DNA of 46,794 nt from Planctomycetota bacterium (GTDB taxonomy: Bacteria; Planctomycetota; Uabimicrobiia; Uabimicrobiales; JABWCH01), in the NCBI GenBank assembly GCA_020057085.1, contig JAGVGO010000246.1, forward strand, positions 1 to 46,794, read 5' to 3'. Shown here one piece after another: positions 1,300 through 43,592 of the stretch. The position numbers were made by a program, and so were the translations under genes. The notes below the pieces were generated by a model, which saw only the letters and a program-made list of their open reading frames with translations, made no database searches and was not told where the DNA came from. Positions within the stretch are counted from its first letter, which is position 1. Every line of letters begins with the position of its first letter.

Positions 1300-1317
1300 C
1301 AGTTTTGCAACAGATTT
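1300..1317. repeat. 18-bp direct repeat cagttttgcaacagattt (copy 1)
   Basis: Exact match to 1527-1544. Confidence 0.85.
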
Positions 1318-1419
1318 GTAATAGTTCAGGTGATGAGTGACAGTTAAACGTCGAGCATATTCATTCGGAGAAAGCCTTTTGAGTTCACGCCCCCGCCGCG
1401 GACTCTGAAACGCCCATTT

Positions 1420-6236: not shown

Positions 6237-7952
6237 TTACTCTTTTTTGCGTTTGATCCCTACGATCGTGATATCATCAAACTGCTCATTATTGCCAATA
6301 AAATCGATTACCGACTGAAAGATATTGTTCATAGCCTGATCCACCGGCAAATGGGCATACTGTTCCGCCAAAATGATCAAGTTTTCCAGAGTGAACATCC
6401 TGCCCTTTTCATTCATAGCCTCAGTGACACCATCGGTAAAGAGGACGATCATATCTTCTGCTTCGAAGATCAGCTCTTCCAATTTCAGATGCGGACTTAC
6501 AATGTCGTATTTGAGTCCAAGTACCACACCACCCGCCTTGAACACCGAACATTTCTTCTGTTTGGCCTGGTAATGGATGATGTGTTCATGTCCCGCAGAA
6601 CTGAAGAGAAATTTTTTCTTCTTGGCATCCCAAAACATCAGCAACAGGCTCACAAACCTGCCTGTACCCCAGATATCTTTTTCGAGCAGACGGGCGACTT
6701 GATCCAGTATCTCGCGCGGTGTACTATAGAAAGGAATAAGAGCACGGATAAAAGAACGCACTTCGCTCATAATAAGGCCTGCCGCCACTCCCTTACCGGC
6801 TACGTCCCCGATGCTTACATAGATGTCTTCAGTGATCTGGTTGGGCTGGATTTCCCGATAGAGGAAATCGTAATAGTCGCCTCCGATCTCTTTGGCACTT
6901 TGCATCAAACCGTAAAGTTCGATATCTTTGCTGGTCGGGATCGTCTTCGGCAACAAGCTTTGCTGGATGTTTTTACCGATTTTCAATTCCTGCGCACGTG
7001 CCTTCTGTTCTTCGCGTTCCTCCTGAATGCGGATGTTCTCGAAGGCGTAAGCGGCCTGGCTGGTGAAGAGTTCGAGGATTTCCGTATCGCGGTTTTCCGA
7101 TTTGAGTTCGTCAACGAAGAGGAGGCCTAGCGGCGTTTCGCCGAGCGACAGCGGCACCAGACACCCTTGGTCCCAGCGTGAGGCACTGTCCAGCACCTTG
7201 AGAAACTTCTGCTTGTCCTCTTCTTTGCGTGCGGCGAATTTACCTCGACCTGCCATAAATTCCAGTTTGCCGTTCATGCGCATGGCCAGGAAGGCATGCT
7301 CCGTACCCATACTGTCAGCCGCCTCTTCAACTACGTTTTTACACAACTCTTCATAGGTTTGCAGACGGAACAGCTTGGGCGTGACAACGAGCAACCTTTG
7401 CACTCGTTCCTGACTTTCCTTGATCTTGTTCATCGCGATGTTTTGCTCTGTGCGTAAATTCCAGGAAACCACCAGATTACAAGCCGTCTGCAGCAACTCT
7501 TCTTTGGTGAACGGTTTTTTGATATACAGCCACTCGTCTTGCGATTCAAAAATTTTGCGGATTTCGCTAACACTCTGATCGGTAAGGTCGGTAATCGCCA
7601 CCACAGCGCACAACAGTGAAGGGAAGATGCGCTTCACTTCGCGGATACAGTCGAGGCCGCTGGCTTCCCCCTCAATGCCAATATCGAAGAAGCCGACCGC
7701 CATCTCCTCTTCCTTATTTTTTGCTTCCAGCGCATTACGAATGGCAGCCTGTCCCGACATGGCAGGAAACACCTTGTAGCCGCTTATCTCACTGCCTTCA
7801 GCCTCGACCCCATACTGCCGCTGGATATATTTTTGCATAATCATGGCAACACGATCGGTGGAGAAAGTGAGTACGTCTTGGTAGAGTTTTAAAATATCCT
7901 CTTCCGCATCCACACAGAGAATATTCAGATTCCAACGGTGTTCCAGTCCCAC
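6237..7952 (-). CDS. Response regulator receiver - GAF - SpoIIE-type PP2C serine phosphatase
   Basis: NILCVDAEEDILKLYQD...FFDIG...YIKKPFT receiver; IQQSLLPKTIPTSKDIELYGLMQSAKEIGGDYYDF...ISIGDVAGKGVAAGLIM...VLFTDGVTEAMN SpoIIE core. Confidence 0.9.
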   Translation of the reverse strand: MGLEHRWNLNILCVDAEEDILKLYQDVLTFSTDRVAMIMQKYIQRQYGVEAEGSEISGYKVFPAMSGQAAIRNALEAKNKEEEMAVGFFDIGIEGEASGLDCIREVKRIFPSLLCAVVAITDLTDQSVSEIRKIFESQDEWLYIKKPFTKEELLQTACNLVVSWNLRTEQNIAMNKIKESQERVQRLLVVTPKLFRLQTYEELCKNVVEEAADSMGTEHAFLAMRMNGKLEFMAGRGKFAARKEEDKQKFLKVLDSASRWDQGCLVPLSLGETPLGLLFVDELKSENRDTEILELFTSQAAYAFENIRIQEEREEQKARAQELKIGKNIQQSLLPKTIPTSKDIELYGLMQSAKEIGGDYYDFLYREIQPNQITEDIYVSIGDVAGKGVAAGLIMSEVRSFIRALIPFYSTPREILDQVARLLEKDIWGTGRFVSLLLMFWDAKKKKFLFSSAGHEHIIHYQAKQKKCSVFKAGGVVLGLKYDIVSPHLKLEELIFEAEDMIVLFTDGVTEAMNEKGRMFTLENLIILAEQYAHLPVDQAMNNIFQSVIDFIGNNEQFDDITIVGIKRKKE

Positions 7953-8044: not shown

Positions 8045-8053
8045 CCCAGTGTG
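8045..8053. repeat. Left 9-bp target site duplication cccagtgtg
   Basis: Exact direct repeat with 8237-8245 flanking the MITE-like element. Confidence 0.85.
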
Positions 8054-8236
8054 CAGGGCCATTTCATTCTCCGTGTTTTGCCATCTTCGCGCGGCAATGC
8101 CTTCTCCACGATGATCGGAACAACGAACGGTTGCAACCAGAGTGCGAGTAAGCTGGACAGCCGATCCTCGTTACGAAGGCATTTGCCGCGCTCATTGTGG
8201 ATTTTACTGCTCGCTCTGGAGAATGAAATGACCCTG
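8054..8236. mobile_element. MITE-like palindromic element, copy A
   Basis: Terminal inverted repeats cagggccatttcattctcc / ggagaatgaaatgaccctg; subterminal arms cgcggcaatgccttc / gaaggcatttgccgcg; flanked by 9-bp direct repeat cccagtgtg. Confidence 0.88.
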
Positions 8237-8245
8237 CCCAGTGTG
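8237..8245. repeat. Right 9-bp target site duplication cccagtgtg
   Basis: Exact direct repeat with 8045-8053. Confidence 0.85.
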
Positions 8246-8516: not shown

Positions 8517-10289
8517 ATGGCTACTTTATCTTTGTACAGTCATGCAACTCAGCAGAAACACGTCCTGCAAGGTCGCCTGGTATATACCATCGGCTCGGCG
8601 CCCGACAATTGGCTGCGCCTCGAGGACGAGACGGTGCATCCCCATCACGCCATCATCAGCATTGCCGGCGAAAAAATAAAAATTCAGAAATTCCAGGAAC
8701 ATGTGGAGATCAAGATTCAACATATACCCATAAAAATACCTGGCTATCTCAAACATGGCGATGTATTGACACTGGGAAAAATAGAATTCGAATTCCAAGC
8801 GGAGACCAGGCTGACTTCTCAGTTCAAGTTTTCACGTGAAGCGCACATCAACAAAATGGTTTGCTCTGTAGACATCAGTTCAGGTTATCCTGCGCCTGGC
8901 GAGAAAGCCTTGTTGACCTATCAAGCCACGGCACTCAACCAAGAGCAATTTGGCATACAACTGTTAGGAGAATTGGTTGCGCTGACCAAGGCTTATGGTG
9001 GTTTGCTCCTGGTGCAAAAGCAAGATGCCGGTAAAAAAATCGAAGATTGTTTTACGCCTCTCGCTGTGAAAGCTCCGGCTGGTGAGACTTTGGCCATTCC
9101 TTACGAGCTTTTTACGAATGCGCCCCATGCAGGCAATCTCAACCATGCTAAAGTGTTGGTCGCGGCTGAGGCTATGGCCAAATCTGGTTCTTCCGGCATA
9201 CTTTCTTGCTCTTACTGTTACCTCCCTTTATTACTGAAATCACAATGGATGGTCGTGTTGCTGGTGGGCACCTTTGGCAATCACAAAAATTTCCAGGATA
9301 CCCTGCCCGCTCTTTGCAGTGCGGCGGGTGCCTATATCATTCCTATGCTCGAACTCCTTGGCAAATATAATGTGCAAGAGGCGGAACTACAAACAGCCCA
9401 ACAAATCATCTCGTATCAAGAGGCGGAGCTTAAGGCAGCAAATGCAATCCAGGCGTCTTTACTACCTGTGGCAAGTCGCTGCCAGCAAATAGAAGTGCCG
9501 GTAAGCCTGGATATTTGGGGCGTCTACCGACCTGCCGGCCAAGTTGGCGGAGACTATCTGGACATACTGTTTTCCCAGGACGAATCGCAATTGTATTTTT
9601 GTATTGGCGATGTGTCAGGCAAGGGTCAGGCGGCAAGTCTGGTGATGGCTACGGTGCGAGCCTATTTCCGGCTGCTGGCCAGCCAAGGTGTTCGCACCAA
9701 TACTATTGTGGAACAACTCAACCGTCACCTTCACCAAGACCTTCATAAAATTGGCAAACTTTTCGTCACCATGATGGTATTTCGCTGGGATGAAATGTCG
9801 GGACAGTTGTTCTATACCCCGGCAGGCACACATTTATGGATCATCAGGCAAGATGGCTCTGTTTCTCCACAAGAAAGAACAGGCACGATCATAGGTATGC
9901 GCGACAAACTCTCCGAGGAGCAAAAAGAAGAGAGCCTACTTCCTCTGGCAGAAGGAGAAATCCTGGTTTTAGCGACGGACGGCGTATGGGAAGCGAGAAA
10001 CCAAAAAGAGGAGGCATGGGAAGACCAGGAAAACAATTTTATCACCAGTTTACGACAAAGCCCCAAAACAAGCGCACTGGCTGTGCTACATCATCTGCTC
10101 AACGATTTAGAATGTTTTACTGCCGGGGTCGGTATTGCCCATGACGATATTTCTTTGCTGGTGATCCAGAAAAAGGCCAAACCAATTGTCATGGTAGACC
10201 GTTTTCTCAAACTTTACCAGCAGGGTAAAGTAGAAAATATTGAGCAAGTCATGAAAAATCTGAAAACAATGTTAGAAAGTTCGCAATAG
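8517..10289 (+). CDS. FHA domain - SpoIIE-type PP2C phosphatase
   Basis: N-terminal FHA pattern (YTIGSAPDNWLRLEDETVHPHHAIISIAGEKIKIQ...GDVLTLGKIEFEF) and C-terminal IQASLLPV...GVYRPAGQVGGDYLDI...CIGDVSGKGQAASLVM...LATDGVWEARN. Confidence 0.9.
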   Translation: MATLSLYSHATQQKHVLQGRLVYTIGSAPDNWLRLEDETVHPHHAIISIAGEKIKIQKFQEHVEIKIQHIPIKIPGYLKHGDVLTLGKIEFEFQAETRLTSQFKFSREAHINKMVCSVDISSGYPAPGEKALLTYQATALNQEQFGIQLLGELVALTKAYGGLLLVQKQDAGKKIEDCFTPLAVKAPAGETLAIPYELFTNAPHAGNLNHAKVLVAAEAMAKSGSSGILSCSYCYLPLLLKSQWMVVLLVGTFGNHKNFQDTLPALCSAAGAYIIPMLELLGKYNVQEAELQTAQQIISYQEAELKAANAIQASLLPVASRCQQIEVPVSLDIWGVYRPAGQVGGDYLDILFSQDESQLYFCIGDVSGKGQAASLVMATVRAYFRLLASQGVRTNTIVEQLNRHLHQDLHKIGKLFVTMMVFRWDEMSGQLFYTPAGTHLWIIRQDGSVSPQERTGTIIGMRDKLSEEQKEESLLPLAEGEILVLATDGVWEARNQKEEAWEDQENNFITSLRQSPKTSALAVLHHLLNDLECFTAGVGIAHDDISLLVIQKKAKPIVMVDRFLKLYQQGKVENIEQVMKNLKTMLESSQ

Positions 10290-35301: not shown

Positions 35302-36609
35302 ATGCCCAACAAGACTATTTATATCAGGGAAGAAGACATGAGTGTCTTTGAGAACGCGCAGAAGATGGGCAAAGATTCCATTTCTGCCATCGTGACCTCC
35401 GCTTTGCGTGACTACGTTGCCAAAGAGGAAGAAAAAAACAAGGGCGAGCAGGAATCTGCACAACTGCTTGATAGCATTTTGGCCAAAGCCGCCTCTGTGC
35501 ACGCTTCGGATATTCATATTCAGCCCATGCGGAAAGGTAGCAGTGTCCGCTTTCGTGTGGATGGAGTACTGAGGGAGAGCGATCCCTTGACGCCACAACA
35601 GCACAACGCCGTCATGGCTTCTTGCAAACACCTGGCTGGGCAAGATGGTGGCGAGAACATGTTGCTGCAAGGTAAAATTCAATCGCTGGAAATCGCAGGC
35701 AGAAAAATTGACATGAGAGTTTGCATTGTCCCGTCCATCCTGGGTGAATGTGTCACCATGCGTATTTTGGAAACCGAGGCCACGCTGCCCGATGTCGCGC
35801 AACTGGAAGTACAGGGAGAGCATGCCGCGCAACTCACCCAGCTTGCGGCCAAGCCTTTTGGGGCTATTTTGGTCAGCGGTCCCACCGGCTGTGGCAAAAC
35901 TTCCACCATTTACTCCATGCTCAAACAGATTGATCGCTCGCATCAGAAAGTGATGACGGTGGAAGATCCGGTCGAGTATATCATCGAACGGTGTGTGCAG
36001 ATTCCCCTGACAACTTTGCCAGGCTCCACGTTTCCCGGCGTGCTACGTACCATTCTGGGGAGCGACCCTGATGTCATTTTTGTCGGGGAAATCCGCGACA
36101 AAGAGACGGCTCTCATCTGTATGGAAGCCGCCTGCACAGGACACCTGGTGTTCTCCCTGCTGCATGCCCATGCAGCTCCCGCCGCATTGCTCCGCCTGAT
36201 CCACATAGGCATAGAGCCGTTTCTGGTGCGCGATGCCGTCATCGGCATAGTAGGGCAGCGCCTCGTACGCTGTCTTTGTAAAGAATGCAAGACCAGAGAC
36301 AATGCCAGCTACCGGCAGCTTGAGCTTGAGCGATACATCGAATCAGGAATTCAGTTGTTCAAGGCGGTCGGCTGCAAGAAATGTGGGCAGAGCGGCTATA
36401 AAGGGCGAACGGCGCTTTTTGAAGTTTTGCTGCCGAGCAGCGAAGTGCAGCAAGCCATCATGCGCGGTGTAGCGGAAGACGAACTGAACAAGATCGCGCA
36501 CAAGGAAGGCATGAAGACGCTGCTGGAAGATGGTTTAGATAAAGCCGCCCGCGGCTACACTTCGGTAAGTGAGGTATTGCGTGTGATGCAAGGAAATATC
36601 TCCGCGTGA
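35302..36609 (+). CDS. GspE/PilB-family secretion ATPase with N-terminal EXLDI/ribbon-helix-helix-like segment
   Basis: Walker A VSGPTGCGKTST, VEDPVEYI, LGSDPDVIFVGEIRDKETA, GHLVFSLLHAHAA, CxxC pairs CLCKEC / CKKCGQSGYKGR; N-terminus MPNKTIYIREEDMSVFENAQKMGKDSISAIVTSALRDYVAKEEE. Confidence 0.9.
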   Translation: MPNKTIYIREEDMSVFENAQKMGKDSISAIVTSALRDYVAKEEEKNKGEQESAQLLDSILAKAASVHASDIHIQPMRKGSSVRFRVDGVLRESDPLTPQQHNAVMASCKHLAGQDGGENMLLQGKIQSLEIAGRKIDMRVCIVPSILGECVTMRILETEATLPDVAQLEVQGEHAAQLTQLAAKPFGAILVSGPTGCGKTSTIYSMLKQIDRSHQKVMTVEDPVEYIIERCVQIPLTTLPGSTFPGVLRTILGSDPDVIFVGEIRDKETALICMEAACTGHLVFSLLHAHAAPAALLRLIHIGIEPFLVRDAVIGIVGQRLVRCLCKECKTRDNASYRQLELERYIESGIQLFKAVGCKKCGQSGYKGRTALFEVLLPSSEVQQAIMRGVAEDELNKIAHKEGMKTLLEDGLDKAARGYTSVSEVLRVMQGNISA

Positions 36610-40098: not shown

Positions 40099-40280
40099 CA
40101 TGGCTATTTCATTCTTCGTGTTTTGCTATCTTCGCGCGGCAATGCCTTCTCCACGATGATCGGAACAACGAACGCTTGCGTGTCTTTGTGCGCCAAGCAC
40201 GACAGCCGATCCTCGTTACGAAGGCATTTGCCGCGTTCACTGTGGACTTTACTACTCGCTCGGAGAATGAAATGACCCTG
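40099..40280. mobile_element. MITE-like palindromic element, copy B
   Basis: catggctatttcattct... / ...ggagaatgaaatgaccctg ends; internal sequence closely matches 8054-8236; flanked by ggtcttttc (40090-40098) and ggttttttc (40281-40289), an 8/9 target duplication. Confidence 0.87.
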
Positions 40281-43551: not shown

Positions 43552-43592
43552 CAGGGTCATTTCATTCTCCAGAGCGAGTAGTAAAATCCACC
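43552..43592. repeat. Solo end fragment of the MITE-like element, inverted relative to the other copies
   Basis: cagggtcatttcattctccagagcgagtagtaaaatccac is the reverse complement of the right end of copies A/B; the rest of the element is absent. Confidence 0.85.

Follow-up and report, generated by a model that had tools for sequence, protein, structure and literature searches.

What moved a short palindromic element that lies between two phosphatase genes of a Planctomycetota bacterium, and what does this element carry? The element (183 bp, + strand) occupies positions 8054-8236 of the window, the 46,794-nucleotide stretch of DNA analysed here, and an earlier note had read it as a MITE-like element mobilised by a DDE-type transposase. 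Re-reading the sequence placed each of its claimed features where the note had put them: a left terminal inverted repeat (TIR) CAGGGCCATTTCATTCTCC at 8054-8072 (+ strand), a right TIR CAGGGTCATTTCATTCTCC (as read on the - strand) at 8218-8236, the two 19-bp TIRs being identical at 18 of 19 positions, subterminal arms CGCGGCAATGCCTTC / GAAGGCATTTGCCGCG, inner arms GATCGG / CCGATC, and a 9-bp target duplication, CCCAGTGTG, repeated without mismatch at 8045-8053 and 8237-8245. The proposed long cruciform was borne out by folding energies of -80.3 kcal/mol (+ strand) and -82.5 kcal/mol (- strand). This fold is far beyond chance, since both strands beat their shuffled versions (z -6.5 and -6.9, respectively; 0 of 200 shuffles as good). 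No open reading frame of at least 100 aa overlaps the element, which is short and non-coding, as MITEs are (about 70-300 bp).

Domain matches also upheld the position between two SpoIIE phosphatase genes, which are divergently transcribed: a SpoIIE gene at 6237-7952 (- strand; PF07228, E 1.8e-39) and an FHA + SpoIIE gene at 8517-10289 (+ strand; E 7.3e-34). A promoter scan, in which the number of sites was at chance level, placed a promoter-like site on the - strand at 8036-8008, just beyond the left end of the element. A caspase-domain protein (PF00656; 10333-12093) adjoins the FHA-SpoIIE gene. A CesT-like chaperone (737-1249), the FHA/Yop-YscD-like domain that accompanies SpoIIE at 8517-10289, and a T2SSE ATPase (35302-36609) share the window, and these are possible secretion-system genes.

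We then searched by BLASTN for further copies, as the earlier note had suggested, in the element's own genome (an assembly of 3.73 Mb in 288 contigs, 59% complete) and in its relatives. The search returned 43 matches from the own genome and 0 from 58 relatives, and the TIR pattern, with up to three mismatches allowed, matched the own genome 42 times, against 0 for a reversed control pattern. Because of these matches, the element is no chance palindrome. The TIRs are common to dispersed copies, of which 14 have both ends and several are partial, the total coming to about 15-20 occurrences; the other two-ended copies measure 125-281 bp. In an alignment of the 14 two-ended copies and one single-ended copy, pairwise identity averaged 88% (range 76-99%), and therefore the family does not stem from a single recent burst. 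The window itself holds a second copy at 40099-40280 (+ strand, 182 bp, 88% identical), flanked by the imperfect 9-bp duplication GGTCTTTTC / GGTTTTTTC, and a remnant with a single 40-bp end at 43552-43591 (+ strand). A joined-flank test for genes interrupted by MITE copies gave mixed frame lengths. At C30:8102-8160 (L062:4103-4161), two outward-facing MITE ends (GAATGAAATGACCCTG ... CAGGGTCATTTCATTC) lie about 21 bp apart.

The earlier note held that other copies lacking flanking duplications would speak against its reading. We looked at the flanks of the 14 two-ended copies and found that 10 of them have a duplication of 8, 9 or 10 bp with no more than one mismatch, a clear duplication being absent in the other four. 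Exact 9-bp duplications flank the copy at 8054-8236 and those at C114:28659 and C160:18060, exact 10-bp duplications occur on C94, C179 and C282, and an exact 8-bp duplication occurs on C27; the copies at window position 40099 and on C167 and C225 have 9-bp duplications with one mismatch. Altogether, 78 of 126 flank positions matched, compared with a mean of 36.8 and a maximum of 68 after permutation of the flank partners, and none of 10,000 permutations reached the observed total. The length of 9 bp thus stands for the element itself, while across the family the length is not constant and stays within the narrow range of 8 to 10 bp. Since 10 of the 14 copies have such duplications next to their TIRs, a history of DDE-type transposition is well supported. 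The ISAs1 family duplicates 8-10 bp of its target, and the variation in length is informative because it fits this family, whose elements gave 9-10 bp when measured here in the same way.

The DDE-type transposase had been described as not seen in the window, and we likewise found no transposase between such ends in the window or in the 59%-complete assembly. The search for an autonomous insertion sequence (IS) with these ends, which the earlier note had proposed, thus yielded none in the own assembly and succeeded in other genomes, where the elements found belong to ISAs1. In a scan for the exact TIR across one genome per species (85,462 species), the 19-bp sequence immediately preceded the start of an ISAs1-type transposase gene in Halomicronema (L169) and in Cyanothece (L151). 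A broken ISAs1 gene of Nostoc mirabile ends with this TIR, altered at two positions. A tblastn search with part of this broken gene led to three plasmid elements annotated as ISAs1 and ending in CAGGGCTATTTCATTC(T): one of 1167 bp on Acaryochloris pMB07, with the 10-bp duplication ATCTCAGCCC; one of 1154 bp on Gloeobacter pGMOR2, with the 10-bp duplication ATCCTAGTTG and two changes in one end; and one of 1154 bp on Gloeothece Cy782203, whose protein was confirmed to carry PF13808 and PF01609. Two of the three thus have 10-bp duplications. Like the MITE, the ISAs1 elements have this TIR and a duplication of 9-10 bp; they differ from it in being about 1.15-1.5 kb long and encoding a transposase, and an informal comparison noticed no likeness beyond the TIR. 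CAGGG ends and duplications of 9-10 bp were also found on unrelated ISAs1 copies of Ktedonobacter and of species from the host phylum.

The family can be named because the same TIR is found on autonomous ISAs1 elements of other genomes, and the assignment of the MITE's ends to ISAs1 is well supported. Taken by itself, a 9-bp duplication suits several families (IS1, ISKra4, IS4 subgroups and ISLre2), which leaves room for another DDE family with duplications of about 9 bp as the mover, its ends being similar by chance, and the failure to find any driver transposase in the 59%-complete assembly agrees with this. However, the TIR starts with CAGGG and shares 16-19 bp, well beyond this motif, with ISAs1 elements in several genomes, and the 8-10 bp range, with some exact duplications of 10 bp, agrees with what we measured on ISAs1 elements, so that we regard a mover from another family as highly unlikely.

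The mover in this host is, by inference, an ISAs1 enzyme. No PF13808 protein was found in the own assembly (59% complete, 288 contigs) or among the five closest relatives, and in the phylum one is present in only 8 of 149 genomes. Multi-copy ISs are often missing from metagenome-assembled genomes, and for this reason, together with the incompleteness and fragmentation of the assembly, the missing transposase weighs little. Several candidates were followed up and set aside. Single TIR ends at C114:6509, C114:42364, C43:165 and C30:8102-8160 and on C208 and C240 flanked no recognisable transposase. C43 at first resembled the 3' end of a transposase gene; its initial 98 bases, however, are part of another multi-copy sequence, which also occurs in the window at 1317-1402 (- strand) and at other contig ends (23 genome BLAST matches) and is probably a different IS. 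The one PF01609 (DDE_Tnp_1) match of the own genome, on C258, has no TIR nearby and no PF13808. In Nostoc (L121), a 1540-bp pair of TIRs has between its ends a 424-aa frame resembling an iron-sulphur membrane protein, and is thus no IS. Several single TIR matches, in Rhodobacteraceae, an archaeal MAG and others, look like chance, for which we estimate about 8 matches in 264 Gb.

The same exact TIR bounds MITE-sized units in Nostoc (166-171 bp), Chamaesiphon (121 bp) and a Spirochaetia MAG (157 bp). Like the 183-bp element, these units have the CAGGGCTATTTCATTCTCC end and no open reading frame, and most have 9-10 bp duplications (e.g. CTGTGCTAG, ATTAAAACA and TGCGTTACCC), which we found in Nostoc and the Spirochaetia MAG; their interiors, compared by eye, are unlike that of the 183-bp element and differ between phyla. 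Where PMC10969869 and PMC3733652 cite Zhou et al. 2008, Nezha is a cyanobacterial MITE, and the Nostoc elements may be of this kind, which we offer as a lead only. In Ktedonobacter (L128:3363-3408), two CAGGGCTATTTCATTCTCC ends face each other across an 8-bp spacer and make up a 46-bp unit with no clear duplication. A viral contig from IMG/VR (L208, reverse strand from 1469) carries a unit of MITE size whose ends are of this TIR class and which is flanked by a near-exact 10-bp repeat, AACGGCGGTA / TACGGCGGTA.

We next turned to the interior. Positions 8087-8194 (+ strand) form a structured core palindrome (covariance model R1, 103.7 bits) with the motif TCC.CGAYGATSSGAACARCGAACGNTTGCA, and this core recurs in the own genome without CAGGG ends. 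It belongs to a repeat family with three forms. Form F1 (arms GGCAAATGCCTTC / GAAGGCATTTGCC) is that of the MITE and also occurs without TIRs in L015 and L017; form F2 has arms AGTAAGTCTGC / GCAGACTTACC; and form F3 has arms TGCAAAGTCTCT / AGAGACTTTGCA and an additional internal hairpin. An F2 core without CAGGG ends lies at 3-78 of the window (+ strand), cut by the start of the contig. By eye, TATGAAACATGAA is common to the left outer sequences of F2 and F3, and GTTTCATCTTGAAA to the right outer sequences of several F2 copies, neither being the TIR. The interior palindrome family thus also exists without TIRs.

The arms of the core covary. Double changes occurred at 9 of 19 pairs, and 92% of cells were paired, compared with 28-51% in controls with slid partners, statistics that are somewhat overstated, since the aligned copies share descent and this structure guided the choice of alignment; the three-way arm changes between F1, F2 and F3 are plain in the raw sequences. 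These compensatory changes, together with the core's presence at about 15 sites that lack intact CAGGG ends, would fit a unit that is primarily a functional structured element (a non-coding RNA, attenuator or protein-binding hairpin), with a selected core for which the CAGGG ends are one frame of several. Such a role is compatible with a MITE. However, the TIRs and duplications need transposition whatever the role of the core, and selfish repeats also show covarying hairpins. Moreover, the covariance model placed the core at 31 sites of the own genome and detected none in 98 others, in a search whose filters may lose weak matches, and there was no Rfam match (the best hit scored 18.4 bits, the cut-off being 181.5). 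A primarily functional element is therefore rather unlikely.

A long imperfect palindrome in many copies, with F2 and F3 copies that have no definable target duplication, also recalls REP/BIME-type palindromes spread by a Y1 (RAYT) transposase rather than by a DDE enzyme. For the CAGGG-ended copies, and for these only, the TIRs and duplications argue strongly against this origin: we know of no Y1 (HUH) enzyme that makes TIRs with 8-10 bp duplications, and we consider such an origin of the unit barely credible. REPs and small dispersed repeats (PMC3733652; Elhai et al. 2008, cited there) resemble the present repeat in being structured, multi-copy and mutually nested palindromes. The MITE differs from them in its DDE-type TIRs and duplications, and the F2/F3 cores, at about 110-150 bp, differ from the REPs of PMC3733652, which are 20-40 bp long.

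Taken together, the 183-bp unit is very probably a non-autonomous ISAs1-family MITE, moved by an ISAs1 transposase in trans, whose ends flank a pre-existing F1 palindrome. Acting in trans, a DDE transposase of the ISAs1 family would bind the CAGGGYYATTTCATTCTCC ends and move the unit, and its staggered cuts would duplicate 8-10 bp of the target, here CCCAGTGTG. The unit would have arisen when ISAs1 ends came to flank the F1 palindrome, and not from an IS that lost its interior. Since F1 is seen both with and without the TIRs, it is simpler to suppose that ISAs1 ends captured a core that already existed, and we prefer this to the reverse order.

Three MITE copies (C282, C114:23358 and C244) contain one or two hairpins of about 46 bp, of the type CTCTGTTCCTCACTTCGCTCGGAACGAGGGCGAGGACCTCTGCGAG. 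Each has GCC on both sides, two different GCC sites of the MITE are occupied, and related hairpins occur elsewhere in the genome. The nested ones have the look of insertions into the MITE. They lie at L016, L067 (two sites) and L069, with related ones at L256, L257 and L259, and two variants show compensatory stem changes (ATGCC/GGCAT and GTTCC/GGAAC). On a broader and tentative proposal, which we hold with less than even confidence, the ISAs1 MITE captured a lineage-specific, covarying F1 palindrome and disperses it, so that one folded module would occur in several unrelated mobile or intergenic frames and would itself be a landing site for a third, GCC-duplicating hairpin.

These results put a name, ISAs1, to the likely mover of the MITE, for which only a DDE-type enzyme had been proposed. 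One 19-bp ISAs1 terminus is common to MITEs of cyanobacteria, a spirochaete and this host, with differing interiors, and one transposase family is thus used by unrelated cargo. The 183-bp element is an ordinary example of an established type, the MITE with IS ends. What is unusual here is the structured core common to several frames, together with the hairpins nested in some copies, and the core with its compensatory arms may be worth examining on its own as an undescribed repeat or putative RNA.
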